From Opisthocomus hoazin (taxonomy: Eukaryota > Chordata > Aves > Opisthocomiformes > Opisthocomidae), in the NCBI RefSeq assembly GCF_030867145.1, contig NC_134428.1, forward strand, positions 19,261,537 to 19,325,536: a DNA stretch of 64,000 nucleotides, read 5' to 3'. Positions 4,511 through 64,000 of the stretch are shown one piece after another. Below the pieces are notes generated by a model that ran no database searches, was not told where the DNA came from, and saw only the letters and a program-made list of their open reading frames with translations. Position 1 is the stretch's first letter. The number at the start of each line of letters is the position of its first letter. The translations under genes were made by a program, and so were the position numbers.

Positions 4511-4639
4511 TCCCCCCTGAAATCCGTGCTGCTTGGCCTCTGGCCCGGTGACGGTCAGCGCTGTGGACCCTGAGGTGCTCAGGTGTAGGAGTTGGTTATG
4601 AGGAGGAAGATGTTGGGTGTTCCTCTGTTCGACCATTAA

Positions 4640-5180: not shown

Positions 5181-5182
5181 AG

Positions 5183-9757: not shown

Positions 9758-9834
9758 ATGGACTTTTCACGTCTACACACGTACACCCCTCCCCACTGTC
9801 TGCCAGAGAACACTGGCTATACGTATGCACTCAG
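9758..9834 (+). CDS. SUN1: SUN1 exon 2 (start codon; residues 1-26)
   Basis: The exon begins at 9,738 after TTTTACAG, with 20 nt of leader before the ATG at 9,758. It encodes the conserved SUN1 N-terminus ([14 protein letters not shown], then [10 protein letters not shown]). The donor is GTGAGA, and the exon ends two bases into codon 26. The duplicated copies lack this exon. Confidence 0.92.
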
Positions 9835-34020: not shown

Positions 34021-34079
34021 AAAGTGCACGTAATGTTTGAAAGAAGAAATAAAAGTTTCTTTCCTCTATTTTTGATCAC

Positions 34080-34330: not shown

Positions 34331-37300
34331 AAAGATATTTTCCATGGAGATAAAAAGCAGTTTTTACATCTGCCTTCAGTGAGCATGGCCTGTCTTAATT
34401 GGTAGATGAGATCTAGGTCCCAGGGACGCAGTAGTATGAGATTGAGGATATACCATGAGACATAAGCGCAAGCTGCCTGCCATACAACGGTGTGAGCGGT
34501 ACTGATGGATGTTCCCCAATGTCCTTGAGTGCTTGACTTCACAGTTTGAAAGCTGGCTCATACTGATTTTTGTTTAGACTGGAGTAGTGTGCGCTGTGTG
34601 ACGTCTAGCTTGCAAACTTAAGGTAGCTTGTGTCACGAAGTAGGAAGACGACCTGTAGATCTAAGCAGTCTTCAGGGGGAATTCTCTTGAACACCCTTTT
34701 TGCCTTTTGTTTGTGATCTAGGTATATGGTTCTGGGGGTTTGATGGCTGCTTCTCACTATTACCTTTGTTGAACTGGATCAAAATTGATAGAATACAGAG
34801 AACAGAGGACTCTCTCCGTGTTCGTGAACCGCAGGCTGATTCTTTGCACTCTGTGCAACCTCCAGAGGTAAGGGAGAACAGTCTAGGGAAGAACTCTGGT
34901 ATCTTGGAAGACTTCTTAACTGCCATGCCTTCAATATTTGGCAAGAACTACTTGACACACAAGGCTAATGTGAATAAATGTCTTGATCTTTACATATATT
35001 AAAAAAAAAATTCTGTATACCTTAGGGTACCATCAACATCTTTGCCTCTGGTCGTGAAAGTGAGCTGGAAAAGCAAATGGCCTTTCTGTCTGAGAGATAC
35101 CATCACCTTGATGAAAAATATAGCAAAGTGATGCTTCTACTCCAGAACCTTCAAGATCAGGTTGCCCAGAAAAGTGACAAAAGCGAAACATTGACGCTAA
35201 TAAGAAATATGATGGGTCAACATCCTCAAGATGCGAGACTGGAGCAAAAGGTAAGATAGTCAGTTGTTGGTGCTTTTGGGTGGTGATCGACGTATCCTGT
35301 TTTAGTAACGCAGATTACTAGCCATTTGATTCAGGCTTGCGTCCAATTTTGTGAGCAAAAGTGATTTGCAGCCTTTTCTGCGGGATCTAGAGTTGCAGAT
35401 CTTCCAGAAGATCGCTCTCCATATGTCTGTGACAAGCCAAAAGCTAACATCTGCAGTAGTAACAAAGGCTGTGACTAATGCAGGGGTTCGTGGAATCACA
35501 GAAGCGGTGAGTGAGTTGAAGTTCTCGCAAGTTCAACTAAAACCGTCAGGAGTCCTTTTCTAGGCATTTTTTGGAGCATCGCAGTCAATATAAATGTCAG
35601 TGACTTGAAGAGATGTTTAGAACATGAATTGAAATGGGGAGAACTACAGAAAATGCTTGATGAAGCGTACGCTTACAGCATTGCTTGTTGCCTGTTGCGA
35701 ATGTTGTTTTTTTTTTCCAAAGTATGCTATCTTGAAAATTGCAGAATTCCCAAAAAACAGCTATACCAAAGCAATGCAGCTCAGGGTCTTGGGAAGGTGG
35801 GGGAAAGAATGCAACTTTTGAAGAAGGCACCAGTCAATATGCAGTATGAATTTGTATTTTAAGCCAAAAAACCATGCACTAAAAATGGCCTCTGTCTTGA
35901 GAGAGGCTTTCAAAGACTTGCGATGGAGTGCAGCATCTCAAAAAGATGCTTATTCTACATGTATACAGATGTGTATAGATCAATTACTTTATCAGTTGAT
36001 ATTATTAAATTCTTCCCTTTCTCCTCTTCTATGTGTATATCTGTAGCAAGCCCAGACTATTGTAAACAATGCCCTGAAACTTTTCTCTCAAGACAAGACT
36101 GGTATGGTGGATTTCGCCTTGGAATCTGGAGGTAAATAGTGGAGGAAACTCCACTTTCACGATTCGTGTTATTTTATAGTATCTACTAAAAATGTCGAAA
36201 GATCTGCTTGCGTGGGGTGTACGCACCACTGAACTCGCTAGGGAAAATGTGTATGTTTTAGCCCTCTGAGGTGAAAAACCTTGAACATGCTGAAAAGAAC
36301 ACTGTACTTGATAGAAGCATTGTATCCCCAGCCAATGACTAGACTTGAACAGTATCTTTACTAGTTGGTTTTGAGGAAAAGAACTGGTATGTTCACGAAG
36401 CTTTGTACAAATCTCTGGCTGAAAAGTCTTCAGGAAGAAATGAGTAATTATTTCGGCTAACCTGATACCTCTTTTTTAAGGTGGCAGCATTCTGAGTGCT
36501 CGCTGTTCTAAAACCTATGACACCAAACCAGCAGTGATCAGCCTCTTTGGAATTCCTCTGTGGTACTTCTCTCAGCCTCCAAGGGCGGTGATTCAGGTAA
36601 TTAAAGGCCGAGTGAAGAAATTCAGCAATGTTATTTTGTGCTGAGGGGTTTGGATTGTTTCTTGGATGCTGGATGTTTCTGTCTGCAACACACTGTGGGG
36701 CACGGGTCCTTTGAACGATGTTCCCAAGAGTGCCATTCTTCTGGTAGTTCCTGGGCACTGCTCAAGTCGTCTTCTAGCAAAACGAAGACCCTGCTAGGAG
36801 GCTTGGGTGGTACACTGGACTTCTGCAGAGTGTGAGCACTGGGAGGGTTCCTGTTGTGAAGTAGTCTCCAGGCGGATCTTCAAAACGCTGCTGGCTGTTT
36901 GGGTGGATATGCTGTCTCCCTGAAGAATGCTACCAAATAGATTATATTCTGCCACTTACTCTCTAAGACTGTCCCTAATAATTCAGAATTCGCCACAACT
37001 CTTTCTGGCAAAATGCTTGTGGCTGCAGGTTTTGTTGTTGCTGTTGTGTTCCATCCTGTTCTCTCCCCTTTCCTCCTGTCTAGCCAGACATGTATCCAGG
37101 AAACTGCTGGGCTTTCAAAGGACCACAGGGGTATCTCGTAGTTCGACTTTCAAGGAAGATCTATCTGACTGCCTTTACGTTGGAACACATCCCAGAAGCA
37201 CTTTCAGCAACAGGAGAGATCTCCAGTGCTCTGAGGAGCTTTGCAGTATATGTAAGTCTGTCTGTGAACTTCAGAGGATATTTGTATGCATAAAGAATAT

Positions 37301-38843
37301 TTGTGGCGCAGATCTTGGAAAATAAGGACTGAAGGGAGGACAGCTAAGGAGAGAAACTGCTTGCTTTTAAAATTGCTGTTTTTGTAATCAGCTTTGAGAT
37401 TAGGAATAAGAAGTGTTGCAGCTAATTTTGAGGGAGCTGTTTCTTTTCTTCCTGCTTTATACAGTAGTAAACGTTTTTGGAGGGAGGTGATTGTTTTTGA
37501 TTTGGTATCGTTCTTTCAGGCACTCGAATTGTTCCATCCTTCCACCACTCCTGCTGCTTACCCTCTCCCTCCCCAGTGTTGGCTTTGCACCTTGTCTGTG
37601 ATGTGCCTTCAGTGTGTTTTAAATTGATTTTAACTAGCACCACAGCTGCTTAGGCAGGACTGCAGAACAGAAGACCACAGGCTACATCAGAGTGTAGCTG
37701 TGATCCCTGAGAACATTTGTCTAGCTCCATTAAATGCTGAAGCCGCCGTCTGCAAGCATCTGAATCTTGGCTTCCGTCTTGTTTGTGATGTTGCTGTTTT
37801 CTCATTCTTGTTTGTCCTGAGCAGTTTACATTGTACACTGCGATCTTGGTTGTGCCATGGAAATGGTGGGGTTTGACCGTGAAAACAGCAACATACAAAC
37901 ATAGCACAGCTCTTTGCAGTTCAGGAAAGTCAAATGCAGAGCTGTGGCTGAAGAAGCATGAAGTTCCACGGGAAGTATTCTGATCTCGGTTTCAGAGACT
38001 TGCGTTGACAGGCAGTTAGGTAGGCATGCTTCTGGCTTCGGTTTGACTTGAAATGTGATGGAAGCAAACGTCTTTCTCCTGTTGTTGTAGGGTCTAGATA
38101 ATGAATATCAAGAAGGCGGCAAGCTTCTAGGACAGTATGTCTACGACCAAGACGGAGAACCACTGCAGACCTTTCCAGTGATGGTAAGTCTGGATGAGAA
38201 GATTTCAAGTGTCAGAAGAAGCACACGCATATTTTCTAGGGTAGTGCACAATGAGCAGTGAAGGAAAAAGGCTTCATTCTCTGTTGGGCACCGTAGAAAC
38301 TGAGGTGGAAAGTAGCTACTGATCTGCCTCAAAACCTAAGGTTCGGATAGTTTAGAGGGGAGGAGAGTTTTGTGCCAGGTGGACACAAGTGGTGTGAAGA
38401 TACCGAACGTATGAGGAGTCTGCTTCATGCTGCTTCTGACTCCCTTCACAAAAAAACCCCCAACAAACCGGTTGTAAGGCAAAGAAGGTTCTGTTCCAAG
38501 TGGCAGAAGGTTCCCAAGGCATCACTCAGTTGTTAATCAAAGTTGGTAGTTGCAGGAATGAAGGAAAGCGCCTTCAGTTGCACCTGTTTATACTCCAAAC
38601 CGAACTCTGGTTTGTGTGTTTGTTTTTTCCTTCTGCAGGAGAAAAGTGAAAACGCATTCCAAATAGTGGAACTGAGAGTGTTTTCTAACTGGGGACATCC
38701 GGAATATACCTGCCTTTATCGGTTCAGAGTGCATGGGAAACTTGCCGAATAATCTCCAGCACTTCAGCTTGGACTGGTTTTACGGTTGTGCATTTTGTTC
38801 TCGATTTTTGTATATGCCGGAAAGCCTAGAAGACTGGAATCTT
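34331..38843 (+). pseudogene. SUN1: SUN1 copy 2, partial (exons 11, 12, 16 part, 17-21)
   Basis: Near-identical to SUN1 from intron 10 to the first 91 bases of 3' UTR. Exons: 11 at 34,722-34,867; 12 at 35,026-35,250; 16 (3' part) at about 35,335-35,506; 17 at 36,047-36,131; 18 at 36,481-36,596; 19 at 37,084-37,251; 20 at 38,091-38,183; 21 at 38,639-38,752. A deletion of about 3.1 kb joins the intron after exon 12 to the middle of exon 16 (copy 1 about 25,732-28,835), removing exons 13-15. Using the intronic CAG at the join would shift the frame to a stop within ten codons. Another loss of about 163 bp lies in the intron after exon 17 (at 36,200). There is no start codon exon and no exons 2-10. 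The SUN-domain exons 17-21 are open and carry all key cysteines, so a domain-only product is conceivable but unproven. Confidence 0.9.
38639..38752 (+). pseudogene. SUN1: SUN1 copy 2 last exon (21)
   Basis: Encodes the same terminal strands as copy 1 ([20 protein letters not shown]) with an intact stop. The sequence continues 91 bases into the 3' UTR and then breaks at 38,843, so this copy has none of the poly(A) signals used by copy 1. Confidence 0.9.
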
Positions 38844-39739
38844 GCCTTTTTCTTCGTGGAGGCAGTCGTGATGCGTGGGGCTGACTGCCTAGGTCTGGGC
38901 AAGCCCGTGCGTGGGCCTTCGTCCGCCTCGTCATTTGCCTGCCCCTCCGGTTCCATTGCCTCATACCTATTGCATCAGGGCACCTGGTGTGGAGAGGGAG
39001 GCCAGGAGGGGATTCGCCTGCCGCCCCGAGCAGGGACCCGTTTCCATTCCCCGCTGTCTCTCAGGTGCTCTCCTTCAGCCTGGTGGCGAGAGGGCAGGGG
39101 ATCTTCTGCTTCTTGCGGAACGTCCATCCTGTGCGCTTGTTTCGGGGGTGGCAGGGCATGGCTCCACCAGTCTATTTCCCCCTCGCACTCCCTGATGCTC
39201 CTGAACCTTTCTGCCTCCTCTTTAAGCTCTGCCACCAGGACGAGCAGATCATCCACCTGGTCACAGCGCACGCAGGCGTTCTGCCTGCTGCCCTCCCATA
39301 CCAGTGACAGGCTCGGGCACTCCCTGCAGCCAGAGACCTGCACAGCTGCCTGTTTATGCGGGAGCTCTGTCTGGGTCGCCGTATTCCGCCTGGTGACGGC
39401 TTTCAGGCGAGTGGAGACCCTAGCTACTAGCTGAGCAAGTGATGACCACCGGCTGAATTTACCCCGGTAGCTGGCCGAGCCTCGGGGCCCTGCCTGCGCC
39501 AGCTGCCGTGCCAACTGCCGTGGCAGGCCCTGTTTGCCTGTCCTGGTCGCCGCACTGCGGGTCGCTCGTGCTCCCTCGGGGCTGCTTTTGTGAGGGGGGA
39601 GGGTGCCGCCGTCACTCTTGACCCCGCTCTTCTTTGGGGGGGGGTTTGGTGGGGGCACGCTCTCTCTCGCCAGGCGGCTGTCTCGGCTGTTGTGCCGCTG
39701 AGAAAAGGTTTCCCCGGTGCAATCCCTCGCTCCGGAGCC
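38844..39739 (-). mobile_element. CR1-like LINE 5' part (5' UTR and ORF1 start)
   Basis: GC-rich minus-strand segment. At about 39,440-38,978 it encodes an ORF1-like stretch: a C-x2-C ... C-x2-C zinc-knuckle pattern (GCRECPSLSLVWEGSRQNAC, then VRCDQ), a short leucine-rich coiled coil (VDDLLVLVAELKEEAERF, RSIRECEGEIDWW) and a basic tail (GEWKRVPARGGRRIP). From memory this resembles ORF1 of bird CR1 elements upstream of their esterase domain. Neither a 3' tail nor a reverse transcriptase is present. One end joins SUN1 3' UTR and the other joins the tail of GET4 exon 1, so it sits at a rearrangement scar. It is repeated at 53,714-54,608. Confidence 0.6.
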
Positions 39740-40194
39740 CAGATGTACCGGACGCTCTTCTTCAGGTGGGGCCCGGCGCGCCGCCCTGCCCCTCCCCGCC
39801 CGGCGTTCCAGAGCCTTCCCATGCACCCGGGTCCCCTGCCGCCCGCCGCGCCAGCGCCCGCTCGTAATTGGCCGGCGCTTCTGCCGATCTCGACCTCCTG
39901 TGCCCTCATTGGGCTGCGGGGCGGCGGGGCGGGTACGTGCCGCGGAGGGTAGGGCTAGCGGCGCCAGCCCAAGCTGGGCGCGGGCCCGGCCTGAGAGCAG
40001 CGCGGGGCCCGCGGGTCGCTCCGGCCCGGCTGGGCCCGGCCCGGCCGTGTGAGATGGCCTGGGTGACGGGCAGCGCTGAGTTTCGCCCCCCAGTCCCCAA
40101 GTGTCCCTTGGCAGCCCCAGGAGGGGATGGCCCGGGCCTGCCCCCCCGCCAGCGTACAGTGTCCCCCGGGGACTCGGACCTGGGCCCTGCCGCA
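39740..40194 (+). pseudogene. GET4: GET4 exon 1 tail and intron 1 (fragment A)
   Basis: At 39,740-39,765 the sequence encodes QMYRTLFFR and ends in a donor (TTCAG|GTGGGG). QMYRTLFFR is a conserved GET4 motif (human YYEAHQMYRTLFFRYM). The CpG-rich sequence after the donor fits GET4 intron 1. Upstream of QMYRT the GET4 exon is replaced by the CR1-like segment, so this piece cannot encode GET4. It ends abruptly at 40,194, joined to SUN1 intron 10. Confidence 0.6.
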
Positions 40195-40520
40195 CTTAAA
40201 ATACTGCTGTTTAGACTGGTTAGTTGACAGTATTCCAGGCCAGCTGTCTACTTTGAAATAAACAAACTCAGTTTCAAACACTTGCTGAAAGTGGTGGGCT
40301 CTTTCTGAAAAGCAGGTTCATGTCTTCGCATGTCCTAAAAACTTTAGAAACTACTCTGGGGAGAAGATGAAGCTTCGCAGAAACTTACAGTCAGGATTGA
40401 AAATCCTCTGTACTAGGGAGAATAAGAAAGGAAGAACTTCCCTACCCTGTGTAGAAAGTGCTGCTACTTCTTGCTAAGACAGTGCAAAAACAAGCGTCAT
40501 GTTTGTGAACTGCGAGATTG
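40195..40520 (+). repeat. SUN1 intron 10 fragment at the head of a unit
   Basis: Matches copy 1 from 24,328 to about 24,653. It forms the start of the 14.87-kb tandem unit and recurs at 55,064 and, as part of copy 4, at 63,514. It contains no exon. Confidence 0.88.
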
Positions 40521-40828
40521 CATAATATGTATCTAGGATAAACCAGAGAAAAACGGATGAAAGACAAAACCATTTTTTGATTTGTTCAGAGTTAAAGATT
40601 TGTAATGATTAAGAGATGAAGAAATCTTTTAAAAACACTTGTTTTTTTTTAAACTCCTGGTAGTTAAAGTAGTGTAGCTAAAGTAGGGAGGTCTTGAAGT
40701 GTCTTCAAGTGGGGAAGTTCTTACTTGCTGGGAAGTGGAAACTTGGAGTAGTGTGGCATATGGATCTTTGGTTCTCCAAGCAAGGAACGGGCAACCCAAA
40801 TGTTTAAAATATCAGCTTTGGCTCTAAA
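40521..40828. repeat. 308-bp array-specific segment of unknown origin
   Basis: I find no match to this AT-rich stretch in the complete SUN1 gene or elsewhere in the window outside the array. It links the intron 10 fragment to SUN1 intron 2 and recurs at 55,390-55,697 and, truncated, at 63,840-64,000. It has no coding signature. Confidence 0.7.
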
Positions 40829-43800
40829 TGAGTCTTTACCTTGAAACTCCGAGTGCATCCTGATTTTGAATTTGTGGCTCAGCGTGGCAAAGAAACTGTC
40901 CTGAATGGCTTCCTCTCTCCACTTGGTCCCCAAAGAACTGTGTGTCTAAAGCTGTACAACGAATGCTTGCTCTGGTTTGACTTCAAACATGGGTTTCCAT
41001 GGTGGTTGTTTCTTTCTAACTAGCATTTGCTTTCAGTTGTTCAACTTGCAATGTGAATTGCTGAAGAGAACCTTGACTATCGACGTACTTCTAAGCTGTT
41101 TGTATTATGTGGCGTGTCTTGTAGGAGTTGCTCCATAACCCCGGATAAACTGCTTTGAATGGAAACTCAGACTAGCTTGAAGGGCGTGTTTGTTACGAGG
41201 GGAATTTTCTCTTCACCTCAGGTAACTTTGCTCTTCATGTTTCAGAAGCCTTCATGCTGCAGTTCGAGTTATTCTTCGTCTGCTTTGGATTTTGAGACTG
41301 AAAATAAAATAGATCCAGTATTTGATTCGCCAAGAATGTTGCGGCGTAGCTTACGGTTATCTGCTGCGGCATTGAAGAAATCCAGTGATGCACCAAAGGA
41401 TACCCATCCTGACAGCTCTTACGCTGGAAACCTGTCCTTCAGAGAGCAGTCTTCCAAGTAAGCACTTTTTGTCGTCACAAGTTAATTTCTCGGTTAGAGT
41501 CTTGAGACTTGCTGTTTGAACATGACAGTACAAACCTAGTTTCCCGGCTGCTTCATTCTTTGTTCTCGGCATTGACTGCCATACTCTGAGAATTATGCTC
41601 AGTGTGTGGTTTGCAGTGAAGTCTTTGCAAAAGCGTAGATGTTGGAGGACTGTCTTTTAAACCTGATTTGAGCCGTTTAGTCATGTCAGTGTTAACATAC
41701 CCTGCCTTTCTTTTTCATTTAAAGTGAGAGAGAAAGAGAAATTTGCATCTTTCGTGCTGTATCGTATGTGTCTTTGCTCTGTTTCGTAGGGTGCTGAAGC
41801 ACCGCCCAAGTGTGAATAAGAAATCTGGCAGTGCAAGACACACACCAAGGAAGAATCTGTCCCGCTCTTCCATTGTCTGCCAAAGCAGTTTCAATAGCCA
41901 TGCCAGTGATGCATCAATTGTATCCAGTGCATTGGGTGAATCCCGGATTCGAGAGCAGAGAGAAGTTACTAATTTCTGGGGTAGGTAATCATTGCCATTG
42001 CTTGTATCGGACTGTGAAAGCTGCTTCTGGGTTGGCGTGTATGAACGTGGGACTTTTACTTGGAGTTCTTGTCAGATATCATAGTTGATTGTGGCACTTC
42101 CTTACTTTTGAGACCAAATTTTTTTTTTTTTTCCCTTTGAAGATCTTGATGATGAAGGCAACCCTAAAGGTAACTATGGTTTCATTTTCTTTCCGAGTGC
42201 ATTCTATTCAATGGTAACTAGCGACGGCGATACTGATAGCAGTGCTCTATATGTTTTACTCTTGGTTGGCTAGGTAGTGATACTACACTAATGCAGGGAA
42301 ATGGTGATACAGAAACAGCAGAAAACAGCACAGTGGTCAATGGCTACACTTGCAGGGATTGCAGCATGCTTTCTGAACGGAAGGAGGTTCTGACAGCATA
42401 CTCGCCTTCTCATGTGCCATCTTCCAGAATTTACTCCAGGGATAGGAGCCAGAAACATGCATCCAGTAAGTTACTTTCTCTTTTTTTTTTTTTCATGTGG
42501 ATGGCAGAATGGTGTACAGTTCAGTTGATGCTTTTTTCATGTAGTGTTCTTTAAGTACTCTTCCTGCCCTGCTAAATTTATCAATATCCAAATTCTAGAT
42601 ATCAGCTTACAAGGAATACCTTCCTCTGTTTCATTTGAAACTTTGCGTACTTGTTGGCTTCTGATATCTAATGATCAGCTTTTCTTTTTCAGTGCTACTG
42701 TAGGACTTACACGGTTTTCGAATACGTGTCTATTTCTAAGGTTTTGGTAAGGGTTTTCAGATGAAACTGCTTCTGTATGGTCCAGATTTTTGATGCTTTT
42801 TTTTATTCTTACGTGAACTTTCAAAATTGAGCAGAACAGTTACTTTGCAGTGCTTCTGTTATGCAAGAAATTGGAGAGATACTGTCCTACTTTGCTTTGG
42901 GTTTTTTCTCCTCATTTAACCGTGCAGCTTATTAGAGTGTTTTTAGAAGCTAAACCTCAAGTCCTTGAAAAATGGAACTCCAAAGGGGAAAACTGATTCC
43001 AGATAGACTCCCTGGTGACCATATTCCTAAAGCTCAAAACCAAATGAATCTGCTGTAAACAAGGTTCTGCCTTTTCAAGGCAATCTCCATTATAGGGATG
43101 CTTGTCCTCAGTGTCCTGACTGCATCTGCCTGCCTCTTGTATACCATCTGTAATTTCTTGATGGTTGGTAGTCCTCAGTTCTCAGGAAGTTGTTTCGTGA
43201 GTGGCCTTGAATTAGGAGCCGATTTTGGAATTCTGTCAGTGTGCTATTCTTGAATGAAGTATGTTCTCAGTAGCAAGAAATCCGTTAGTTCGGACTGTGA
43301 GGTGTGACTTCAAGTGCTTTGGGGCAAGTATATCTTTTTGGTAAATCGGTATCACAGGTAGGAATTCTGTTGGCTTAGCGTCATGAATTACAAGGGACAC
43401 TGTATGAAACCTACTTTCTGTGCTCCTGAGTTTGTATTCACGCAGGAGAATTCTACAAGGAACTCATCTTTGCACATGCATTTGAACTTGAACTGAGTAG
43501 TTTGGGTTCAACTTCGGGAGGGCGGGGGAAGAGGCACACAGTCATGGCAGGTTTTGGGAATGTGGCTGATTCTAGGAGAGCAGCAGTATGGAGGACTGCC
43601 GCTTTGTTCCCGTGGCTCTGCAGAAGTGTGTGTCTCTAGCACTTGAGACAGACCGCTGCAGGAACTTCCTGCAATGCAGAGGCAGAGGAGGAGGTGAGAA
43701 GTCCTCACCCTTTCCAATCCACAAGAAGAATGCAGTTTGTCGCTTTGGAGCTGTAACCCACAAAATCAGTATCAACAGCTCACATCATCCTTGGGAAATC

Positions 43801-44150
43801 CTGAGTAGTGTAAGCAAGGAATTCATTGCTGTGTAGAGTTCTTAATTCTGATGAAGAAAAGGTATTCTTGCTGAAGTCATAGATTCTGTCTTGAAGGTGT
43901 TTTCCCTAGGATGTGTAGTTCTTCCAAAAGCTCTGCTCTAATACCCAGTGCATCCAGCCTTTTCAAACCACGCTTGCTTAAGTTTCACACTCCTGGCTAA
44001 ACAAAGGTTTTCCATGCTTTTTCCTCACTCTTCGACAAGTTAGCGGTCACCAGAGGACAGAAGTACATCTTTAGGTAGGTGAACAATTTGTATTCACACT
44101 GTTTTTTCCAACAGGAGGAACCTGTTTCTACATGAGTAAGATTCTGCGAT

Positions 44151-44182
44151 TGATGCAAAAGATGCTGCAGTGTGTTTGACCA
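44151..44182. other. SUN1: 32-bp micro-inversion in exon 7, copy 3
   Basis: These 32 bases are the exact reverse complement of copy 1 at 19,845-19,876, with collinear sequence on both sides. In the exon frame the residues after LRL become MQKMLQCV and then a stop. Copy 1 keeps the frame open, so the copy 1 orientation is taken as ancestral. Confidence 0.95.
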
Positions 44183-48960: not shown

Positions 48961-49011
48961 GCCTAATATCTAACAAAAGTTGGAAGAAACTTGGGCTTCC
49001 GTGGAAACAAT
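48961..49011. other. About 50-bp inverted block in intron 10, copy 3
   Basis: The core AGTTGGAAGAAACTTGGGCT is the reverse complement of copy 1 at about 24,654-24,700, with small differences at both edges. The flanks are collinear. This is a second micro-inversion between the copies; which orientation is older is not clear. Confidence 0.85.
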
Positions 49012-53713: not shown

Positions 53714-54608
53714 GCCTTTTTCTTCATGGAGGCAGTCGTGATGCGTGGGGCTGACTGCCTAGGTCTGGGCAAGCCCGTGCGTGGGCCTTCGTCCGCCTCG
53801 TCATTTGCCTGCCCCTCCGGTTCCATTGCCTCATACCTATTGCATCAGGGCACCTGGTGTGGAGAGGGAGGCCAGGAGGGGATTCGCCTGCCGCCCCGAG
53901 CAGGGACCCGTTTCCATTCCCCGCTGTCTCTCAGGTGCTCTCCTTCAGCCTGGTGGCGAGAGGGCAGGGGATCTTCTGCTTCTTGCGGAACATCCATCCT
54001 GTGCGCTTGTTTCGGGGGTGGCAGGGCATGGCTCCACCAGTCTATTTCCCCCTCGCACTCCCTGATGCTCCTGAACCTTTCTGCCTCCTCTTTGAGCTCT
54101 GCCACCAGGACGAGCAGATCATCCACCTGGTCACAGCGCACGCAGGCATTCTGCCTGCTGCCCTCCCATACCAGTGACAGGCTCGGGCACTCCCTGCAGC
54201 CAGAGACCTGCACAGCTGCCTGTTTATGCGGGAGCTCTGTCTGGGTCTCCGTATTCCGCCTGGTGACGGCTTTCAGGCGAGTGGAGACCCTAGCTACCAG
54301 CTGAGCAAGTGATGACCACCGGCTGAATTTACCCCGGTAGCTGGCCGAGCCTCGGGGCCCTGCCTGCGCCAGCTGCCGTGCCAACTGCCGTGGCAGGCCC
54401 TGTTTGCCTGTCCTGGTCGCCGCACTGCGGGTCGCTCGTGCTCCCTCGGGGCTGCTTTTGTGAGGGGGGAGGGTGCCGCCGTCACTCTTGACCCCGCTCT
54501 TCTTTGGGGGGGGTTTGGGGGGGGCACGCTCTCTCTCGCCAGGCGGCTGTCTCGGCTGTTGTGCCGCTGAGAAAAGGTTTCCCCGGTGCAATCCCTCGCT
54601 CCGGAGCC
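53714..54608 (-). mobile_element. CR1-like LINE 5' part, second occurrence
   Basis: Second copy of the segment at 38,844-39,739 with few differences. A one-base length change in a G run near 54,505-54,520 splits the long minus-strand frame that is continuous in the first occurrence. It has the same junctions to SUN1 3' UTR and GET4, so it was copied with the unit and is not an independent insertion. Confidence 0.6.
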
Positions 54609-55063
54609 CAGATGTACCGGACGCTCTTCTTCAGGTGGGGCCCGGCGCGCCGCCCTGCCCCTCCCCGCCCGGCGTTCCAGAGCCTTCCCATGCACCCGGG
54701 TCCCCTGCCGCCCGCCGCGCCAGCGCCCGCTCGTAATTGGCCGGCGCTTCTGCCGATCTCGACCTCCTGTGCCCTCATTGGGCTGCGGGGCGGCGGGGCG
54801 GGTACGTGCCGCGGAGGGTAGGGCTAGCGGCGCCAGCCCAAGCTGGGCGCGGGCCCGGCCTGAGAGCAGCGCGGGGCCCGCGGGTCGCTCCGGCCCGGCT
54901 GGGCCCGGCCCGGCCGTGTGAGATGGCCTGGGTGACGGGCAGCGCTGAGTTTCGCCCCCCAGTCCCCAAGTGTCCCTTGGCAGCCCCAGGAGGGGATGGC
55001 CCGGGCCTGCCCCCCCGCCAGCGTACAGTGTCCCCCGGGGACTCGGACCTGGGCCCTGCCGCA
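54609..55063 (+). pseudogene. GET4: GET4 exon 1 tail and intron 1 (fragment B)
   Basis: Duplicate of fragment A: QMYRTLFFR at 54,609-54,634, then the GTGGGG donor and CpG-rich intron. It is essentially identical to the first, which points to recent tandem duplication. Confidence 0.6.
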
Positions 55064-55389
55064 CTTAAAATACTGCTGTTTAGACTGGTTAGTTGACAGT
55101 ATTCCAGGCCAGCTGTCTACTTTGAAATAAACAAACTCAGTTTCAAACACTTGCTGAAAGTGGTGGGCTGTTTCTGAAAAGCAGGTTCATGTCTTTGCAT
55201 GTCCTAAAAACTTCAGAAACTACTTTGGGGAGAAGATGAAGCTTTGCAGAAACTTACAGTCAGGATTGAAAATCCTCTGTACTAGGGAGAATAAGAAAGG
55301 AAGAACTTCCCTACCCTGTGTAGAAAGTGCTGCTACTTCTTGCTAAGACAGTGCAAAAACAAGCGTCATGTTTGTGAACTGCGAGATTG
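55064..55389 (+). repeat. SUN1 intron 10 fragment, second occurrence
   Basis: Head of the next tandem unit, matching 40,195-40,520 and copy 1 from 24,328. It carries a few substitutions that it shares with 63,514-63,839 and not with 40,195-40,520. Confidence 0.88.
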
Positions 55390-55697
55390 CATAATATATA
55401 TCTAGGATAAACCAGAGAAAAACGGATGAAAGACAAAACCATTTTTTGATTTGTTCAGAGTTAAAGATTTGTAATGATTAAGAGATGAAGAAATCTTTTA
55501 AAAACACTTGTTTTTTTTTAAACTCCTGGTAGTTAAAGTAGTGTAGCTAAAGTAGGGAGGTCTTGAAGTGTCTTCAAGTGGGGAAGTTCTTACTTGCTGG
55601 GAAGTGGAAACTTGGAGTAGTGTGGCATATGGATCTTTGGTTCTCCAAGCAAGGAACTGGCAACCCAAATGTTTAAAATATCAGCTTTGGCTCTAAA
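55390..55697. repeat. 308-bp array-specific segment, second occurrence
   Basis: Matches 40,521-40,828 with only scattered differences. It again joins the intron 10 fragment to SUN1 intron 2. Confidence 0.75.
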
Positions 55698-58600
55698 TGA
55701 GTCTTTACCTTGAAACTCCGAGTGCATCCTGATTTTGAATTTGTGGCTCAGCGTGGCAAAGAAACTGTCCTGAATGGCTTCCTCTCTCCACTTGGTCCCC
55801 AAAGAACTGTGTGTCTAAAGCTGTACAACGAATGCTTGCTCTGGTTTGACTTCAAACATGGGTTTCCATGGTGGTTGTTTCTTTCTAACTAGCATTTGCT
55901 TTCAGTTGTTCAACTTGCAATGTGAATTGCTGAAGAGAACCTTGACTATCGACGTACTTCTAAGCTGTTTGTATTATGTGGCGTGTCTTGTAGGAGTTGC
56001 TCCATAACCCCGGATAAACTGCTTTGAATGGAAACTCAGACTAGCTTGAAGGGCGTGTTTGTTACGAGGGGAATTTTCTCTTCACCTCAGGTAACTTTGC
56101 TCTTCATGTTTCAGAAGCCTTCATGCTGCAGTTCGAGTTATTCTTCGTCTGCTTTGGATTTTGAGACTGAAAATAAAATAGATCCAGTATTTGATTCGCC
56201 AAGAATGTTGCGGCGTAGCTTACGGTTATCTGCTGCGGCATTGAAGAAATCCAGTGATGCACCAAAGGATACCCATCCTGACAGCTCTTACGCTGGAAAC
56301 CTGTCCTTCAGAGAGCAGTCTTCCAAGTAAGCACTTTTTGTCGTCACAAGTTAATTTCTCGGTTAGAGTCTTGAGACTTGCTGTTTGAACATGACAGTAC
56401 AAACCTAGTTTCCCGGCTGCTTCATTCTTTGTTCTCGGCATTGACTGCCATACTCTGAGAATTATGCTCAGTGTGTGGTTTGCAGTGAAGTCTTTGCAAA
56501 AGCGTAGATGTTGGAGGACTGTCTTTTAAACCTGATTTGAGCCGTTTAGTCATGTCAGTGTTAACATACCCTGCCTTTCTTTTTCATTTAAAGTGAGAGA
56601 GAAAGAGAAATTTGCATCTTTCGTGCTGTATCGTATGTGTCTTTGCTCTGTTTCGTAGGGTGCTGAAGCACCGCCCAAGTGTGAATAAGAAATCTGGCAG
56701 TGCAAGACACACACCAAGGAAGAATCTGTCCCGCTCTTCCATTGTCTGCCAAAGCAGTTTCAATAGCCATGCCAGTGATGCATCAATTGTATCCAGTGCA
56801 TTGGGTGAATCCCGGATTCGAGAGCAGAGAGAAGTTACTAATTTCTGGGGTAGGTAATCATTGCCATTGCTTGTATCGGACTGTGAAAGCTGCTTCTGGG
56901 TTGGCGTGTATGAACGTGGGACTTTTACTTGGAGTTCTTGTCAGATATCATAGTTGATTGTGGCACTTCCTTACTTTTGAGACCAAATTTTTTTTTTTTT
57001 CCCTTTGAAGATCTTGATGATGAAGGCGACCCTAAAGGTAACTATGGTTTCATTTTCTTTCCGAGTGCATTCTATTCAACGGTAACTAGCGACGGCGATA
57101 CTGATAGCAGTGCTCTATATGTTTTACTCTTGGTTGGCTAGGTAGTGATACTACACTAATGCAGGGAAATGGTGATACAGAAACAGCAGAAAACAGCACA
57201 GTGGTCAATGGCTACACTTGCAGGGATTGCAGCATGCTTTCTGAACGGAAGGAGGTTCTGACAGCATACTCGCCTTCTCGTGTGCCATCTTCCAGAATTT
57301 ACTCCAGGGATAGGAGCCAGAAACATGCATCCAGTAAGTTACTTTCTCTTTTTTTTTTTTTTTTTTTTCATGTGGATGGCAGAATGGTGTACAGTTCAGT
57401 TGATGCTTTTTTCATGTAGTGTTCTTTAAGTACTCTTCCTGCCCTGCTAAATTTATCAATATCCAAATTCTAGATATCAGCTTACAAGGAATACCTTCCT
57501 CTGTTTCATTTGAAACTTTGCGTACTTGTTGGCTTCTGATATCTAATGATCAGCTTTTCTTTTTCAGTGCTACTGTAGGACTTACACGGTTTTCGAATAC
57601 GTGTCTATTTCTAAGGTTTTGGTAAGGGTTTTCAGATGAAACTGCTTCTGTATGGTCCAGATTTTTGATGCTTTTTTTTATTCTTACGTGAACTTTCAAA
57701 ATTGAGCAGAACAGTTACTTTGCAGTGCTTCTGTTATGCAAGAAGTTGGAGAGATGCTGTCCTACTTTGCTTTGGGTTTTTTCTCCTCATTTAACCGTGC
57801 AGCTTATTAGAGTGTTTTTAGAAGCTAAACCTCAAGTCCTTGAAAAATGGAACTCCAAAGGGGAAAACTGATTCCAGATAGACTCCCTGGTGACCATATT
57901 CCTAAAGCTCAAAACCAAATGAATCTGCTGTAAACAAGGTTCTGCCTTTTCAAGGCAATCTCCATTATAGGGATGCTTGTCCTCAGTGTCCTGACTGCAT
58001 CTGCCTGCCTCTTGTATACCATCTGTAATTTCTTGATGGTTGGTAGTCCTCAGTTCTCAGGAAGTTGTTTCGTGAGTGGCCTTGAATTAGGAGCCGATTT
58101 TGGAATTCTGTCAGTGTGCTATTCTTGAATGAAGTATGTTCTCAGTAGCAAGAAATCCGTTAGTTCGGACTGTGAGGTGTGACTTCAAGTGCTTTGGGGC
58201 AAGTATATCTTTTTGGTAAATCGGTATCACAGGTAGGAATTCTGTTGGCTTAGCGTCATGAATTACAAGGGACACTGTATGAAACCTACTTTCTGTGCTC
58301 CTGAGTTTGTATTCACGCAGGAGAATTCTACAAGGAACTCATCTTTGCACATGCATTTGAACTTGAACTGAGTAGTTTGGGTTCAACTTCGGGAGGGCGG
58401 GGGAAGAGGCACACAGTCATGGCAGGTTTTGGGAATGTGGCTGATTCTAGGAGAGCAGCAGTATGGAGGACTGCCGCTTTGTTCCCGTGGCTCTGCAGAA
58501 GTGTGTGTCTCTAGCACTTGAGACAGACCGCTGCAGGAACTTCCTGCAATGCAGAGGCAGAGGAGGAGGTGAGAAGTCCTCACCCTTTCCAATCCACAAG

Positions 58601-61600
58601 AAGAATGCAGTTTGTCGCTTTGGAGCTGTAACCCACAAAATCAGTATCAACAACTCACGTCACCCTTGGGAAATCCTGAGTAGTGTAAGCAAGGAATTCA
58701 TTGCTGTGTAGAGTTCTTAATTCTGATGAAGAAAAGGTATTCTTGCTGAAGTCATAGATTCCGTCTTGAAGGTGTTTTCCCTAGGATGTGTAGTTCTTCC
58801 AAAAGCTCTGCTCTAATACCCAGTGCATCCAGCCTTTTCAAACCACGCTTGCTTAAGTTTCACACTCCTGGCTAAACAAAGGCTTTCCATGCTTGTTGCT
58901 CACTCTTCGACAAGTTAGCGGTCACCAGAGGACAGAAATACATCTTTAGGTAGGTGAACAATTTGTATTCACACTGTTTTTTCCAACAGGAGGAACCTGT
59001 TTCTACATGAGTAAGATTCTGCGATTGATGCAAAAGATGCTGCAGTGTGTTTGACCACTGTTAGTGCAACTGTTTCAAATGGTTTTGCTGAAGCTGGGTT
59101 GTGAATTAAAAGGTACCTTTTCAGTTGTCTTCCTTGGTCTCCACAAAAAGCTGGAGTGTGTCTGCTGGGTTTTTTTCTTATGGACTTCATCTTTGGCACT
59201 ACGGTATTCTTTTTCTATAGTCTTTTGGCTGGCTCCTGTCTTTCTCTCTTTTCAGTTGTGCTACCCTTTTCCTACTTTCCCCCTGTTTTGGAAGTATCAG
59301 GATTCACATATGTGAGATACGTGTTACAGTTAAGATTCAGATGTTGATTTTGACTAGGAAGTGGTAGAAGGTAATGTTTAAATTGAGAAACTGAAGTTGA
59401 TTTTTTTTTTTTAAACTGTTTGCTGTGAGAGTGTCAAATCCTAACTCTTCAATGTCTGTAGGTTTGGACTGTCTTCGTACCCTTAAGCCCACTGTGCCAT
59501 TAAAGCTTGATGAGATCTGTCTTGCAAAACTAAAACTGCCATCATCACTCCGCACTACTCTAAAGCACATCTTGTTTTCCCCAAAAATGTTCCATTCTTC
59601 TTTAGTGCTTTCTCTTCTGTAACGCCTGCTCTGTGAGTGAAGTGAAATTGCCATAGGCAGAAGGCAACCGATTTCTGTGTGTGAATAAAACTTTGCGCTC
59701 TCCTGTTCTCTCTGCCTCAGTGCCTTGTAACTTGCTAACGCTCTCTTCTCAGTCTTCTAAGATCTCCGGTAAAACCTGTACAAAGAGGTATTGCTTGGCC
59801 TGTTTGACAGGATGATGGGAATAGGAGCTGAAGATTTGAGGAGTTGTTACTTGGGGACTTTTGTACTAACTTTGCTATCTGAAAAGAAGCAAGAAAGGTT
59901 TTTGAATGAAAAGGCCCCCTGTTATTTACAGAAGGAAAAAAAAGAAGTTTGCACAGAGTAGGCTGCTGCTTTGGTTGTTTTTCAGTTTTTCTGTGACTAA
60001 CCTGGCTTTAGTAGTGAACCAAGCCAGTTTAGCTGAAATCTGTATCCATGATAGCTCAAATGCGCATATGTGAAAGGCTTTGAACTTGAGTTACATTCCA
60101 TGTATGCTGTTTGAATGCGTTGCAGCTCACTCAGACTACTGTGGAAGCATGAATGTGAAGGAGTTTTACAGAGAAGATGGCCATCTTGGTGTAAATGAGG
60201 GAATCAATATGTAAGTAGAATGACTGATGTTGTCTTTCAGCCTTGGGCTGTACACCAGGTTGTTGCTGTAACAGTAATATCAGATGGCCCCTGACTCTAG
60301 GGAAGCTGCAAAGTCAACGATTGTTTGGCAACTTGAACGTAGGGGCAAGAATGGCGATTGCCTGGTGTACTGTAAGATTTCCCCAAGCAAGATTGACTCT
60401 GCTGTAGTTTGCTTAGTGGTTTTTGGTTTGATAACTGGTGTGATGACATAGACTTGTTCAAGTTTTCTTGTAACAATCTTGATTTGATCCTGGCTTTGTC
60501 CCATTAATCGACTGTTACCACCACCAACCGGTGATGACTGTAAGGGGAAGAAACCTCTTGAACTGTACGCCACAGACCACATGCAATCTTTACGGGCTAA
60601 AAGGGTAGCAAGGACCATTTGGCACACCTTTTCTTATGCAGGTTGACTTGGACCTTTTTTTTTCTCTTGTTTTTGTTTTGAATCGCAATCTCACAATGTT
60701 AATCCTACATATTGTTTTGCGTTTGTTTTCTTATCTTCATCTATCAAAGTAGATGAAAAGTGTAAAGTGTCTAGAAAATTAATGAACAGCTCTTCTGTTT
60801 GATTCTTGCTGTGATACTGGCTTTCGTACGAGCTTGGCGCGCTGCTTAGCTATTAGGAAAAACAAGGTGTAGGGACAGCGTACACCTTGTATGTTAGAAA
60901 GAAGAAGTCATATTGTTAATTGATTCCACTTTGGGGCAGTTGGTACACTTGACAGGTTGAAAAGCTGCCTTGAAAAGAAAGCAAGGTATGAGGTATTGGT
61001 GTGCAGATGATTTGAATAAAGGGGTTTTAACATTTTATTTTTGTTCTAGTGATAGTCAGTTTTTCCAGGAGTCTTCTAGTGGGATAGCATCTTCCCTGTG
61101 AGATGAGCGTTTGCTAGCTTGAATGACAGAGGCATCAAGAATCTGTGGAGTGCCCCTTATTCAGCAAAGGAAAATGATTTGAGACACTTCAGTCACCTAA
61201 ATGTTTTGCAAAATATTGGGTTGGTAGATCTATAGTCCCTCAGATGAAGCCAGACATATCTGCTAATCTAAAAATGTAGGATTATTTTCTCAATTTGTAC
61301 TACGTAGTATGTTCTGTAGAATGAGCAGTCCTAGTCTTGGAAATAGTAATTGTTGGCTTCAGTGGGCTTCAAGTCACAGCACTTTGTTCTAGTCTGTTGG
61401 GGTTTGTTGTTGTTGTTGGTTTTGTTCTTTCTAAGAGCCTCAAAATTGACCTGCTGAAGATCCTTGGGAACATTCAGTTTATTGAACGTTTACTGCTTGT
61501 AACTTTTAGTAGGGAATATTTTCTATTATTTGTGAGTATTTCTCAGGCATCATTAATTCTTTCACTAGGATTTAAAACTTTTAATTGTTCCTTCTTCTGC

Positions 61601-63839
61601 ACATGAACCCAGACAATGAACTTGATGTAGAACTCAGAACAAATCAGATGCTTTTAAAGTAATGATGTGCTTAAAACTTGTTTTTGTGGTACTACTTTTT
61701 TACTCTTCTTCTACACTTAGCATGACATTGTTAGATAAACAAGCTGCAAAAGGTAAACTTTGATTTTTGGAAAAGTGATACGCTACACAGATGCTGTTGA
61801 TCATTCTGTTGATCTCTGTAGATGAAAATTGTGTTTCTAAATTGGCTTGCTTTTACTTGGCTTCATATTTATTAGTGGCTTGCTTTGCTTCTAAACAGTG
61901 AAGAACCAAGTCTGTAGATTACTGGAAGGTATGGTTTAAAATATTGCGGAACGTGTGATGTGCAGGGGATCGCATCTGTTTTACTGCATGTGCTGGGAAA
62001 GAACATTAAGCACGTATATGTATGTTACCACAAGAAGTGAATTTGTTGTAATCTAGGTTACTTTATGCTTGACGTGTTGCAAACAGTGGGAGCAACAGGA
62101 TGGCTTGTGTCTCAGAAGGTGGTGTCTCTACTTTGGCTGGCCGTTCTTTCTCCAGGTGACTGTCTCAGTCTCTGTGTGTGTGTGTGTGTGCGCGCGCATT
62201 GCCCGTTCCTTTTGACAAACTAGGACTCTGCAGGACGTGGCGTACACTAATCCAACTGTGCTTATGCTGTAGCTTTGGTGTCTTGAAATGCATGTGCTGC
62301 TTTTCTTTATTGACCAAAATATGCGTAATGAGAGGGTATATTTCTGTTCGCAGGCATAATGGGAGACTAAGCGGACCGCTTCATGCGGGAACAAGTGTGT
62401 GAATAGCACAGAATATGGGGTGCCAAGAATAACGGGGCGTGTTTTGGTTTGGTAGTCACTGCCCATCTTGGTATTCCTCTTAGCAAAAACTGATGCTGCT
62501 AATCTGTGCATTTCTTGAAACATCTTGAACTGTCTTCATTGTGTGGTAACTTCGATTCAAACATTGACTTCTGGCAAGATAGCGTTGTTCTAACAAATGA
62601 GCATTTCATATTTTTGCGTGGCTGTAGGTTTTGTTGAGCAGCTGGTGTTACAATGCTGTCGTGCTTGTGCTATCTAGATGTTAATAAGCTGCATGCATTG
62701 CCTGTGCTCACGCATTTCTCTGCTCCGCAAAGTGTTCTTGGCCACAGTTGCATGTCCCTCTGCTTGGTTCCTTTGAACATGTGCCGCAGTAATGACATTT
62801 CGCGCTACCACTTTTTGTCTTCTAGGGAGGGCAGCTTCTGGCATGTACAGGTTACTCAGAACTGGATGGTATCAACTTGCTACTCTGATGTCTTTTCTCA
62901 AGGTGTTTCTTCTAAAGAGGTGCATATCCTTTGAGAAAAGTGTTCAGTGAGCAAATGATTTACCCAGTTATAAAACAATACAAGAGGAGAAATGTGTTGT
63001 TTCATGTGAACTTTGCTCTCTCTTTCTCTAGATGCCTTCCAAAGACCTACAAGCTGTTCCTGTTTCTTCTCCCGCTCCTGTTTCGACTAGGTACGTGAAT
63101 CGCTTAGTTATACTACAGACCGGTGTATGCTTACTGCAGCCGTTCCAAGAGAGCGTTTTTAGTTGAACTCTCGGTTTATGAAGAAGACGCAGAAGCAAAA
63201 AAGAGCAAGTTTGTTTGTGACTAGGGCAGTAATTCAAGCTTTCAAGGTACTGACAAGTCAGTAGCCTTCCCCTTGCCGTGAAAGGAATACCCTCGATTTC
63301 ATTTCATAGAGCCCTTTAGAAAGTGAGAGTGGGTGAGTAAATGCACTGAAGTCCTTTTTTCTTCACCTCCCTTGATAAGAATAGCAGTGAGGTCACAAAG
63401 AGCAGGTTGTGTACCGATTGCTTTGATTGTTGTTAATCTCCGTAAAAGTGGGGTTAGGTTCTTTGAGCAACTCATCCAAAGTCTTTCCCTTGCTCTGGAC
63501 CATCCTTGAGTTGCTTAAAATACTGCTGTTTAGACTGGTTAGTTGACAGTATTCCAGGCCAGCTGTCTACTTTGAAATAAACAAACTCAGTTTCAAACAC
63601 TTGCTGAAAGTGGTGGGCTGTTTCTGAAAAGCAGGTTCATGTCTTTGCATGTCCTAAAAACTTCAGAAACTACTTTGGGGAGAAGATGAAGCTTTGCAGA
63701 AACTTACAGTCAGGATTCAAAATCCTCTGTACTAGGGAGAATAAGAAAGGAAGAACTTCCCTACCCTGTGTAGAAAGTGCTGCTACTTCTTGCTAAGACA
63801 GTGCAAAAACAAGCGTCATGTTTGTGAACTGCGAGATTG
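55698..63839 (+). pseudogene. SUN1: SUN1 copy 4, partial (exons 3-10)
   Basis: Matches copy 1 from intron 2 to the middle of intron 10. Exons: 3 at 56,132-56,326; 4 at 56,659-56,849; 5 at 57,011-57,037; 6 at 57,142-57,333; 7 at 58,990-59,112; 7b near 60,126-60,210; 8 at 62,057-62,155; 9 at 62,826-62,919; 10 at 63,032-63,090. It shares with copy 3 the deletion in intron 4, the 12 extra bases before exon 3 and the inverted block in exon 7 (59,026-59,057; stop at 59,052-59,054). It is unique in an extra G in exon 7b and a weaker exon 9 donor (GTGCAT). It never reaches exon 11: at 63,840 it runs into the 308-bp segment that opens the next unit. Confidence 0.92.
59026..59057. other. SUN1: 32-bp micro-inversion in exon 7, copy 4
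   Basis: The same inverted block as in copy 3, with the same edges, so the inversion happened once, before copies 3 and 4 separated. Confidence 0.95.
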
Positions 63840-64000
63840 CATAATATGTATCTAGGATAAACCAGAGAAAAACGGATGAAAGACAAAACCATTTTTTGAT
63901 TTGTTCAGAGTTAAAGATTTGTAATGATTAAGAGATGAAGAAATCTTTTAAAAACACTTGTTTTTTTTTAAACTCCTGGTAGTTAAAGTAGTGTAGCTAA
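63840..64000. repeat. Start of a further tandem unit (cut by window end)
   Basis: Matches the first 161 bases of the 308-bp segment (40,521 and 55,390). By analogy the array should continue into SUN1 intron 2 and exon 3 just past the window edge. Confidence 0.85.

Follow-up and report, generated by a model that had tools for sequence, protein, structure and literature searches.

A tandem array of SUN1-GET4 mosaic units between SUN1 and GET4 in the Opisthocomus hoazin assembly

SUN1 and the units beside it

In the window, that is, the whole stretch of 64,000 nt that was analysed, the coding region of SUN1 lies intact on the + strand at 9758-32415, in agreement with the preliminary description. 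It consists of 18 coding exons encoding 791 aa with no internal stop, and the product gives a match to the Sad1_UNC domain (5.9e-45). SUN1 is the tether of meiotic telomeres to the nuclear envelope and is normally single-copy. No Rfam match at the gathering score and no tRNA were found in the whole window. The features are given below in window positions.

9758-9834, 15014-15208, 15541-15731, 17968-18159, + strand: SUN1 coding exons e2, e3, e4, e5
22869-22967, 23640-23733, 23846-23904, 25120-25265, + strand: SUN1 coding exons eX, TM1, TM2, TM3
25422-25646, 26144-26230, 26606-26649, 27695-27830, 28753-29007, + strand: SUN1 coding exons CC, K1, K2, K3, L
29548-29632, 30144-30259, 30747-30914, 31754-31846, 32302-32415, + strand: SUN1 coding exons S1, S2, S3, S4, S5
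32416-34030, + strand: SUN1 3' UTR, its end inferred from AATAAA-type signals
34080-34331, + strand: GET4 upstream region and first exon 1 codons, cut by the array
34332-38843, + strand: first partial unit (SUN1 24,730-25,731, 28,835-29,702 and 29,863-32,506)
38844-39740, strand not assigned: D1, an interspersed repeat fused to SUN1 position 32,506
39741-40194, + strand: D2, GET4 exon 1 end (up to 39,765) followed by a portion of GET4 intron 1
40195-55063, + strand: type I unit, 14,869 bp
40520-40828, strand not assigned: F, an insertion not in the SUN1 gene
55064-63513, + strand: short unit, 8,450 bp
63514-64000, + strand: beginning of a further type I unit, which continues to 78,227

The copies were located by a self-BLAST of the window, in which pieces of 0.3-8 kb were 96-99% identical to the SUN1 gene, much more than chance would give. 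This comparison bore out what had been described from the letters, namely that partial SUN1 copies lie at this place in the orientation of SUN1, and that they differ in extent and reflect more than one simple duplication. The partial unit at 34,332-40,194 starts with SUN1 intron position 24,730. The type I unit consists, in order, of SUN1 24,328-24,653, F, SUN1 14,594-15,800, 17,744-25,731 and 28,835-32,506, D1 and D2. F was found at 27 places, all inside the array, and D1, which we take to be ERV-like, gave 1502 first-look candidates in the genome search, 40 of which were scored. The short unit is what would be expected if two copies of SUN1 24,328-24,653 had recombined. A fourth unit had been placed at 63,840; the unit exists, but it begins at 63,514, and 63,840 is its inner joint between SUN1 position 24,653 and F. 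Only the first ~90 bp of the SUN1 3' UTR is carried by most copies.

Extent and composition of the array

The array extends from 34,332 to ~470,836 in window numbering (436.5 kb), on the same strand as SUN1. The genome search with SUN1 30,000-32,500 gave 33 matches, with all 33 candidates scored. On SUN1's contig (C15), 31 of them lie outside the gene (30 full length and 1 partial), all on the + strand, at a spacing of 6-29 kb, and the last ends at C15:19,732,375, which corresponds to window coordinate 470,839; the sole match off this contig covers 149 bp at 71% on C8. The partial copies that had been counted as three or four are present, but there are 31 additional copies of the 3' portion of SUN1 over ~436 kb, and the array outruns the window. 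Ns are absent from the window and from the part of the 436.5-kb array (230 kb) that was read base by base. An array of SUN1 copies next to SUN1 is confirmed as real in this assembly.

Beyond the array lies what we take to be GET4, where a GET4 sequence matches nine ordered pieces at 471,795-483,035, with 68 Ns inside exon 1. SUN1, the array and GET4 are on one strand, and the array lies between both parental genes. A SUN1 3' UTR that leads directly into a complete GET4, the layout that had been proposed as the sign of an artefact, is absent from the assembly: the UTR is followed by the first GET4 codons, which are broken at 34,331, and GET4 is found ~437 kb on, with the array filling the gap. 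At the left edge (34,331/34,332), GET4 exon 1 is interrupted and SUN1 intron sequence takes over, which is what a tandem duplication would leave. The GET4 stretch in front of it (34,080-34,331) lacks the 225 bp found before the intact GET4 start, and its first ATG is altered.

The copies had been described as SUN1 only; the units are in fact SUN1-GET4 mosaics that fill the SUN1-GET4 gap, with GET4 pieces upstream of SUN1 pieces. A search with a 191-bp stretch of GET4 exon 1, in which all 24 candidates were scored, gave 21 full-length matches, none of them outside the array, and 17 of these 21 copies are identical. A special constraint on GET4 exon 1 is unconvincing as a reason, since neighbouring stretches are little diverged too. 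Type I units carry the end of GET4 exon 1 only; in the fusion-bearing units, GET4 exon 1 and SUN1 are separated by a remnant of GET4 exon 3. The 225 bp directly before the GET4 start codon is absent from the six copies aligned, unit Q included. GET4 exon 1 followed by e3, e4, e5 and eX was also seen at four more places, near C15 19,564, 19,588, 19,687 and 19,717 kb.

Divergence and coding capacity of the copies

Unit types have internal joints and insertions in common, and units within a block are the most alike. Pairwise differences among seven type II units are 0.13-0.37%, and 0.70% separates the two type I units that start at 40,195 and 63,514, whereas a third type I unit differs by 2.1-2.3%. 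A tree built from a 2.6-kb piece (15 rows) groups three proximal type I copies (99/99) and places a fourth type I copy with seven type II copies (96/97), although the deeper forks are weak. In five representative copies compared with SUN1, the divergence is 4.6% (254/5511) within 8-130 bp of a structural joint and 1.6% (700/42,891) further away, where the bins range from 1.2 to 2.3%; the 1,000-2,000-bp bin, at 2.3%, contains an intron cluster near 24,650. The argument that the copies must be recent because they are alike is therefore rejected as stated: it is suitable for the type II units and for two type I units, but not for a third type I unit or for the sequence near joints.

The joint between SUN1 positions 25,731 and 28,835 could be analysed further, as one copy, L020, retains the part that is deleted there. 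Counting derived changes common to at least five of six copies, 14 were found in the 126 bp to the left of the joint and 9 in the 103 bp to the right, whereas the adjoining 846 and 765 bp have 2 each. The comparison with L020 indicates that many of these changes arose in the deletion lineage. Error-prone repair or old divergence may account for such clusters. Blocked gene conversion is unsupported, because no excess is seen beside the two repeat insertions of L020 (1.9-2.1% within 8-130 bp and 1.7-2.7% further away), which form one control.

In a type I unit, exons are more diverged than introns (44/1950 vs 131/10,757; Fisher P = 0.0007). Neither type II (33/1273 vs 139/5096; P = 0.85) nor unit Q (35/2299 vs 241/11,566; P = 0.09, exons lower) shows this, and the type I excess, by itself, runs counter to plain neutral decay. 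Positive selection on exons was rejected, since the excess is absent in type II and Q and the changes beside 25,731/28,835 form a cluster at a joint, for which no selection is needed.

In all 13 copies examined, exon L is cut at the 25,731/28,835 joint and K1-K3 are removed with it. The uncut exons, read in 4-14 copies per exon, retain canonical splice sites and are free of frameshifts, and just two copies carry an in-frame stop, in exon S3. Decay would not lead one strongly to expect this, although at this divergence it is only mildly surprising. No purifying selection was detected in the copies; the best copy has an N:S of 30:5, with no sign of constraint. Because exons are lost or cut, the 225 bp before the GET4 start is missing and purifying selection is not seen, most copies most likely are by-products that would be mostly unexpressed or non-productive. 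In the seven complete type II units read, an open frame of 386 aa from GET4 exon 1 to S5 is present in all seven if TM1 is skipped, and with TM1 kept the frame stops after 109 aa.

Unit P carries the upstream region of SUN1 itself together with e2-e5. It begins at a non-homologous joint between D1 and position 185, differs from the SUN1 gene by 0.1-0.6% per kb over its first 13 kb, and turns after ~13 kb into array-type sequence with array deletions. It is ruled out as a second intact SUN1 by the missing eX and by a 1-bp indel in TM1. Outside the gene, the genome contains a single further copy of e2 and the upstream region, in this frameshifted unit, so that the dosage of SUN1, about which concern had been raised, is probably not increased much.

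In unit Q, GET4 exon 1, whose end phase equals that of SUN1 e2, is followed in phase by the 17 other SUN1 coding exons, all of full length and with canonical splice sites, and the frame is open for 817 aa. The C-terminal Sad1/UNC domain of the predicted product is complete (Pfam PF07738, 4.5e-45, profile positions 2-131 of 132). Synonymous changes number 5 against 10.3 expected (P = 0.03), and the probability of finding no exon indels at its divergence is ~0.05-0.1. Judged from its letters, unit Q most likely can still encode a complete GET4::SUN1 fusion.

Origin of the array and comparison with known systems

We consider it probable, with good confidence, that a tandem SUN1-GET4 array arose between its parental genes by ordinary duplication mechanics and that its copies are mostly non-functional, Q excepted. 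From this one genome, without an outgroup, we infer the following order of events. One or more tandem duplications across the SUN1-GET4 border would have placed GET4 5' sequence before SUN1 sequence. Deletions, at SUN1 25,731/28,835, at 32,506/D1 and in GET4 intron 1, would have reshaped the unit, which repeat insertions would also have changed. Unequal crossing-over would then have multiplied the unit in waves, giving the type I block beside SUN1, a run of ~15 type II units (12.1 kb each), and a mixed distal block, in which the most complete copies lie.

Replication driven by repeats or template switching, rather than crossing-over, is an unlikely main builder of the array. The clusters at the joints would be its trace, and both the concentration of derived changes beside 25,731/28,835 and the raised divergence near joints in five copies are in line with it. 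However, a count by eye of the changes at 25,731/28,835 gave 17 transitions and 6 transversions, as in slow divergence, the L020 insertions lack any such excess, and old divergence retained near joints would look identical. It is quite unlikely that the array is a functional, Sdic-like fusion family, with expression of Q, and perhaps of shorter fusions of other units, probably in germline cells, giving SUN-domain proteins that affect SUN1 or compete with it. The open frame of Q with its matching phase and canonical splice sites, its deficit of synonymous changes and the type II frame kept in 7/7 units argue for such a family, whereas the loss of the 225 bp before the GET4 start, Q included, the early stop of the type II frame when TM1 is kept and the lack of purifying selection argue against it, and the GET4 exon 3 remnant before SUN1 might disturb splicing. 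The stronger proposal of a young gene nursery like Sdic, where a germline Q fusion, with or without shorter SUN-domain fusions, modifies the SUN1 LINC complex, is improbable; if it held, the Q product might, for example, act as a rival in the attachment of telomeres or take part in a meiotic conflict, and the surplus of amino-acid changes would reflect selection.

False joining of alleles or units, by which the copy number or unit P would be unreal, is given a similarly low probability. The first 13 kb of P and the type II units are within the allelic range of birds, for which heterozygosities of 0.34% (hummingbird) and 0.95% (zebra finch) are quoted in PMC9516828, and P opens with a non-homologous joint. 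On the other hand, most copies are 1-5% from the gene and form families with joints, insertions and deletions of their own, the array as read is free of N, and the array-type second part of P argues against P being merely the second allele. An assembly error could affect the copy number and unit P, and is unlikely as the cause of the whole array.

On the favoured reading of ordinary duplication, one contig documents how a duplication across two neighbours can give rise to mosaic units by the tens, with one or more complete fusion frames among them. The array opens direct tests of how fusion genes begin, of the rate of array variation and of whether meiosis is disturbed by extra SUN-domain products, and its copies will disturb both read mapping in this species and the gene models of SUN1 and GET4. 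A literature search, which subscription papers mostly fell outside, gave no description of such a SUN1 array in birds.

The macrosatellites D4Z4 and DXZ4 are large tandem arrays of kilobase-sized units with CpG-rich parts. The present array resembles them in these respects, with tandem units of at least a kilobase in tens of copies (31), and differs in that its units are mosaics of the flanking genes at a spacing of 6-29 kb. False duplications in bird assemblies (PMC9516828) give apparent extra gene copies at near-allelic divergence; the type II neighbours and the first 13 kb of P are at an allelic level of divergence, and most array copies are more diverged, with private rearrangements and unit families.

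The closest parallel is Sdic of Drosophila melanogaster. According to PMC7475035, it arose by a segmental duplication across the adjacent genes sw and AnxB10, with fusion via deletions and many substitutions, followed by tandem expansion, for which unequal crossing-over is invoked, into an array between the parental genes. The repeat includes a transposable-element fragment, the X-linked array of the reference strain has six copies of essentially one length in ~46 kb, and the chimeric gene affects sperm competition (PMC7475035). The SUN1-GET4 array is alike in the proposed duplication of two neighbours, the deletions and the unequal crossing-over, in its place between the parents in the same orientation, with the GET4 5' part before the SUN1 parts, in the repeat element within the unit, and in an open chimeric frame, which is present in one unit, Q, and in type II only with TM1 skipped. 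It is unlike Sdic in having 31 copies over 436 kb and in its several unit lengths and mostly broken units. If the array is real, it would be the vertebrate equivalent of Sdic as regards architecture, at roughly five times the copy number.

Extent of the array and its flanking genes

SUN1 exons were located with the human SUN1 sequence and with splice sites, and the coding exons were named e2, e3, e4, e5, eX, TM1–TM3, CC, K1–K3, L and S1–S5. The SUN1 gene is intact; its coding exons give 791 aa with no internal stop. The translation contains a Sad1_UNC domain (5.9e-45) and a SUN2-type helix-turn-helix domain, and the best PDB matches of the SUN domain are SUN1 structures (2.1e-102 and 2e-101), with SUN2 structures at 2.2e-84 and weaker. 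In the available text of PMC10687773, SUN1 is mentioned only for meiotic telomere attachment.

The genome comprises 1.48 Gb in 415 contigs, and the window is C15:19,261,537–19,325,536 of its plus strand. A genome search with SUN1 30,000–32,500 gave 33 matches, every candidate having been scored (33 of 33). One is the gene itself, 31 are copies sharing its contig and strand, and one, of 149 bp at 71%, is on another contig, C8. With the window count continued along the contig, the last copy has SUN1 sequence up to 470,836. From the gene outward, the matches are spaced by 6.3, 14.9, 23.2 and 14.7 kb, then by 13 intervals of 12.1 kb interrupted by a single 16.3-kb one, and finally by 17.2, 17.2, 17.5, 6.2, 17.5, 6.2, 6.3, 28.6, 18.7, 21.7, 17.5, 12.7 and 19.2 kb. 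A search with SUN1 protein parts gave at least 116 matches among the best 100 of 286 candidates scored, and a further one gave 55 (61 of 61 scored), all on SUN1's contig. In this second search, every genomic copy of the following exons outside the gene lies within the array: e2 once, e3 11 times plus two parts, e4 11, e5 13 and eX 12 times. Beyond the window, −19,999 to 0, 64,001–184,000, 283,465–301,464, 353,965–379,964, 379,965–402,964, 441,965–450,964 and 466,465–496,464 were read; the 230,041 bp read out of the 436,505-bp array contain no N.

On the far side, human GET4 matches nine ordered pieces at 471,795–483,035 on the plus strand. The integrity of the GET4 gene is not fully demonstrated because 68 Ns, which may be an assembly gap or withheld letters, lie inside exon 1 (locus L015) at 471,870–471,937 (C15:19,733,406–19,733,473, C15 being SUN1's contig); the array copies are readable there. 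At the left edge, the pre-array sequence stops within the first GET4 codons, at 34,331, and continues as SUN1 intron sequence from 24,730 on, a junction such as would be left by tandem duplication of a SUN1-to-GET4 segment. Searching the genome with 191 bp of GET4 exon 1, taken from a type II unit, gave 24 matches (24 of 24 scored). Of these, 21 are full-length and in the array (17 at 100%, 3 at 99%, 1 at 90%); the other three are the GET4 gene, which the Ns interrupt, and a pair of 85-bp pieces that includes the left edge. Unit Q, a distal copy, three copies of type II and the left edge itself all lack a 225-bp stretch that stops 3 bp short of the GET4 start; its composition suggests that it is probably the GET4 core promoter. 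The available texts of PMC12958008 and PMC8773107 merely co-list SUN1 and GET4 among human and sheep genes.

Anatomy of the units

The order of the copies, their junctions, their mosaic make-up and their unit families are shown by the sequence. In the following list, pieces are SUN1 positions unless named; D1 is an interspersed repeat, D2 the end of GET4 exon 1 with part of intron 1, and F an insertion absent from the SUN1 gene.

Type I: 24,328–24,653; F; 14,594–15,800; 17,744–25,731; 28,835–32,506; D1; D2
Type II, 5' part: spacer with a CR1-like piece; SUN1–GET4 intergenic sequence; GET4 exon 1; GET4 476,155–476,658 including exon 3
Type II, middle: 13,827–14,040 and 14,181–14,609; F remnant; 15,769–16,409; 17,325–17,951; 21,653–22,112
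Type II, 3' part: 23,504–25,734; 28,835–29,702; 29,863–32,506
Unit P, 354,245–382,262: copy of 185–22,193 in one piece, SUN1 upstream region included
Unit Q, 384,920–400,935: GET4 exon 1, then SUN1 e3–S5

Some type I units additionally lack 29,703–29,862. The joints 25,731/28,835 and 32,506/D1 occur in both types, so types I and II have a common origin. Recombination joining one copy of 24,328–24,653 to another would yield the short unit at 55,064–63,513 and is its putative source. In a distal 17.2-kb unit, F is a 399-bp insertion between repeats of SUN1 14,594–14,609. Searched with 60 bp of F, the genome gave 27 matches, in the array only. Twelve are full-length, and the other 15 cover 38 bp and follow the spacing of the type II units.

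D1 (1502 first-look genome candidates, 40 scored) is taken by us to be ERV-like and the intron element CR1-like; a Pfam search of their frames gave no match above the cut-off. Among the 40 scored, D1 (38,850–39,740) has 11 main matches outside the array, 7 of them on contig C40 at up to 90% identity; C40 may, at a guess, be a repeat-rich sex chromosome. The 46–49 bp or so flanking the intron element 16,344–17,327 (about 16,361–16,409 and 17,325–17,370) both align to one type II stretch, as if duplicated at insertion, though they are long for such an element.

Coding state of the copies

The first exon survey covered 4–14 copies per exon from part of the stretches read, and its uncut exons had canonical splice sites and no frameshifts. 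One copy of CC carries a 6-bp in-frame insertion, two copies of S3 (matches from 51,929 and 75,091) an in-frame stop, and all 13 copies of L were truncated. Outside this survey, Q and the distal copy L020 (441,965–450,964) retain K1, K3 and an untruncated L. In L020, a 978-bp CR1-like piece and about 2 kb of unmatched sequence lie between K3 and L (445,089–448,031). In all seven complete type II units read, the frame that runs from GET4 exon 1 through S5 stays open over 386 aa when TM1 is skipped and stops after 109 aa with TM1 kept. Type I copies, unit P and unit Q carry 7–9 substitutions in exon e4 (15,541–15,731), most of which lie in its last 45 bases and alter residues matching human SUN1.

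Unit P contains e2–e5 but no eX; its TM1 is altered by a 1-bp indel, and the array deletions appear further on. It differs from the gene by 0.1–0.6% per kb over the first 13 kb and by 0.8–3.1% over the remainder. A nearly identical second copy of the SUN1 upstream region (2,400–5,400) lies in the array at C15:19,617,999–19,620,995 (L021).

In unit Q, all 17 SUN1 exons have the gene's length and canonical splice sites, and the joined frame is open over 817 aa because GET4 exon 1 and SUN1 e2 both end in phase 2; 736 of 766 aligned residues are identical to SUN1. Relative to the gene, there are 35 substitutions in 2299 bp of exons (1.52%) and 241 in 11,566 bp of introns (2.08%). Introns contain 15 indels and exons none, where 2.98 were expected (P = 0.05), or 2.19 frame-shifting ones (P = 0.11). 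The ratio of nonsynonymous to synonymous changes is 30:5, against about 25:10 expected without constraint (P = 0.03). The frame is therefore open, yet these figures do not indicate selection keeping it. Most units are most likely without function, and the strongest candidate for a product is Q.

Divergence, origin and comparison with Sdic

Pairwise divergence is 0.13–0.37% among seven type II units. It is 0.70% between the type I units at 40,195 and 63,514 and 2.1–2.3% between each of these and the one at 78,228. A tree of a 2.6-kb piece has 15 rows, 14 of them distinct. It groups the three proximal type I copies with support 99/99 and places the type I copy at 88,949 with the seven type II copies at 96/97. 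Support for deeper forks is weak, as is the placement of one distal copy beside the SUN1 gene. At a substitution rate near 2e-9 per site and year, 0.3% would correspond to under a million years and 1–2% to roughly 3–5 million, unless exchange with the gene has reset the divergence. Divergence is elevated near structural joints, and the first rearrangements may therefore be older.

A cluster of derived substitutions flanks the joint 25,731/28,835, with 14 in 126 bp (25,606–25,731) and 9 in 103 bp (28,835–28,937). It is common to at least five of six copies (type I, type II, distal and last) and absent from L020, which lacks that deletion. It could stem from error-prone repair or from old divergence.

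The array most likely began with a tandem duplication over the SUN1–GET4 border, followed by decay through deletion and insertion; unequal crossing-over would then have multiplied the units, perhaps with exchange between copies and the SUN1 gene. False duplications associated with heterozygosity occur in assemblies, according to the available part of PMC9516828; such an error would be relevant mainly to unit P and the exact copy number.

The literature searched contained no report of this SUN1 array. As described in the available part of PMC7475035, Sdic of Drosophila derives from a segmental duplication spanning sw and AnxB10, was fused via deletions with multiple substitutions and later expanded in tandem, and is flanked by sw and AnxB10. 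Every structural feature of Sdic tested was found in the hoazin SUN1–GET4 array. As the comparison is one of structure, it says that the array is built like Sdic and not that the two are functionally equivalent.
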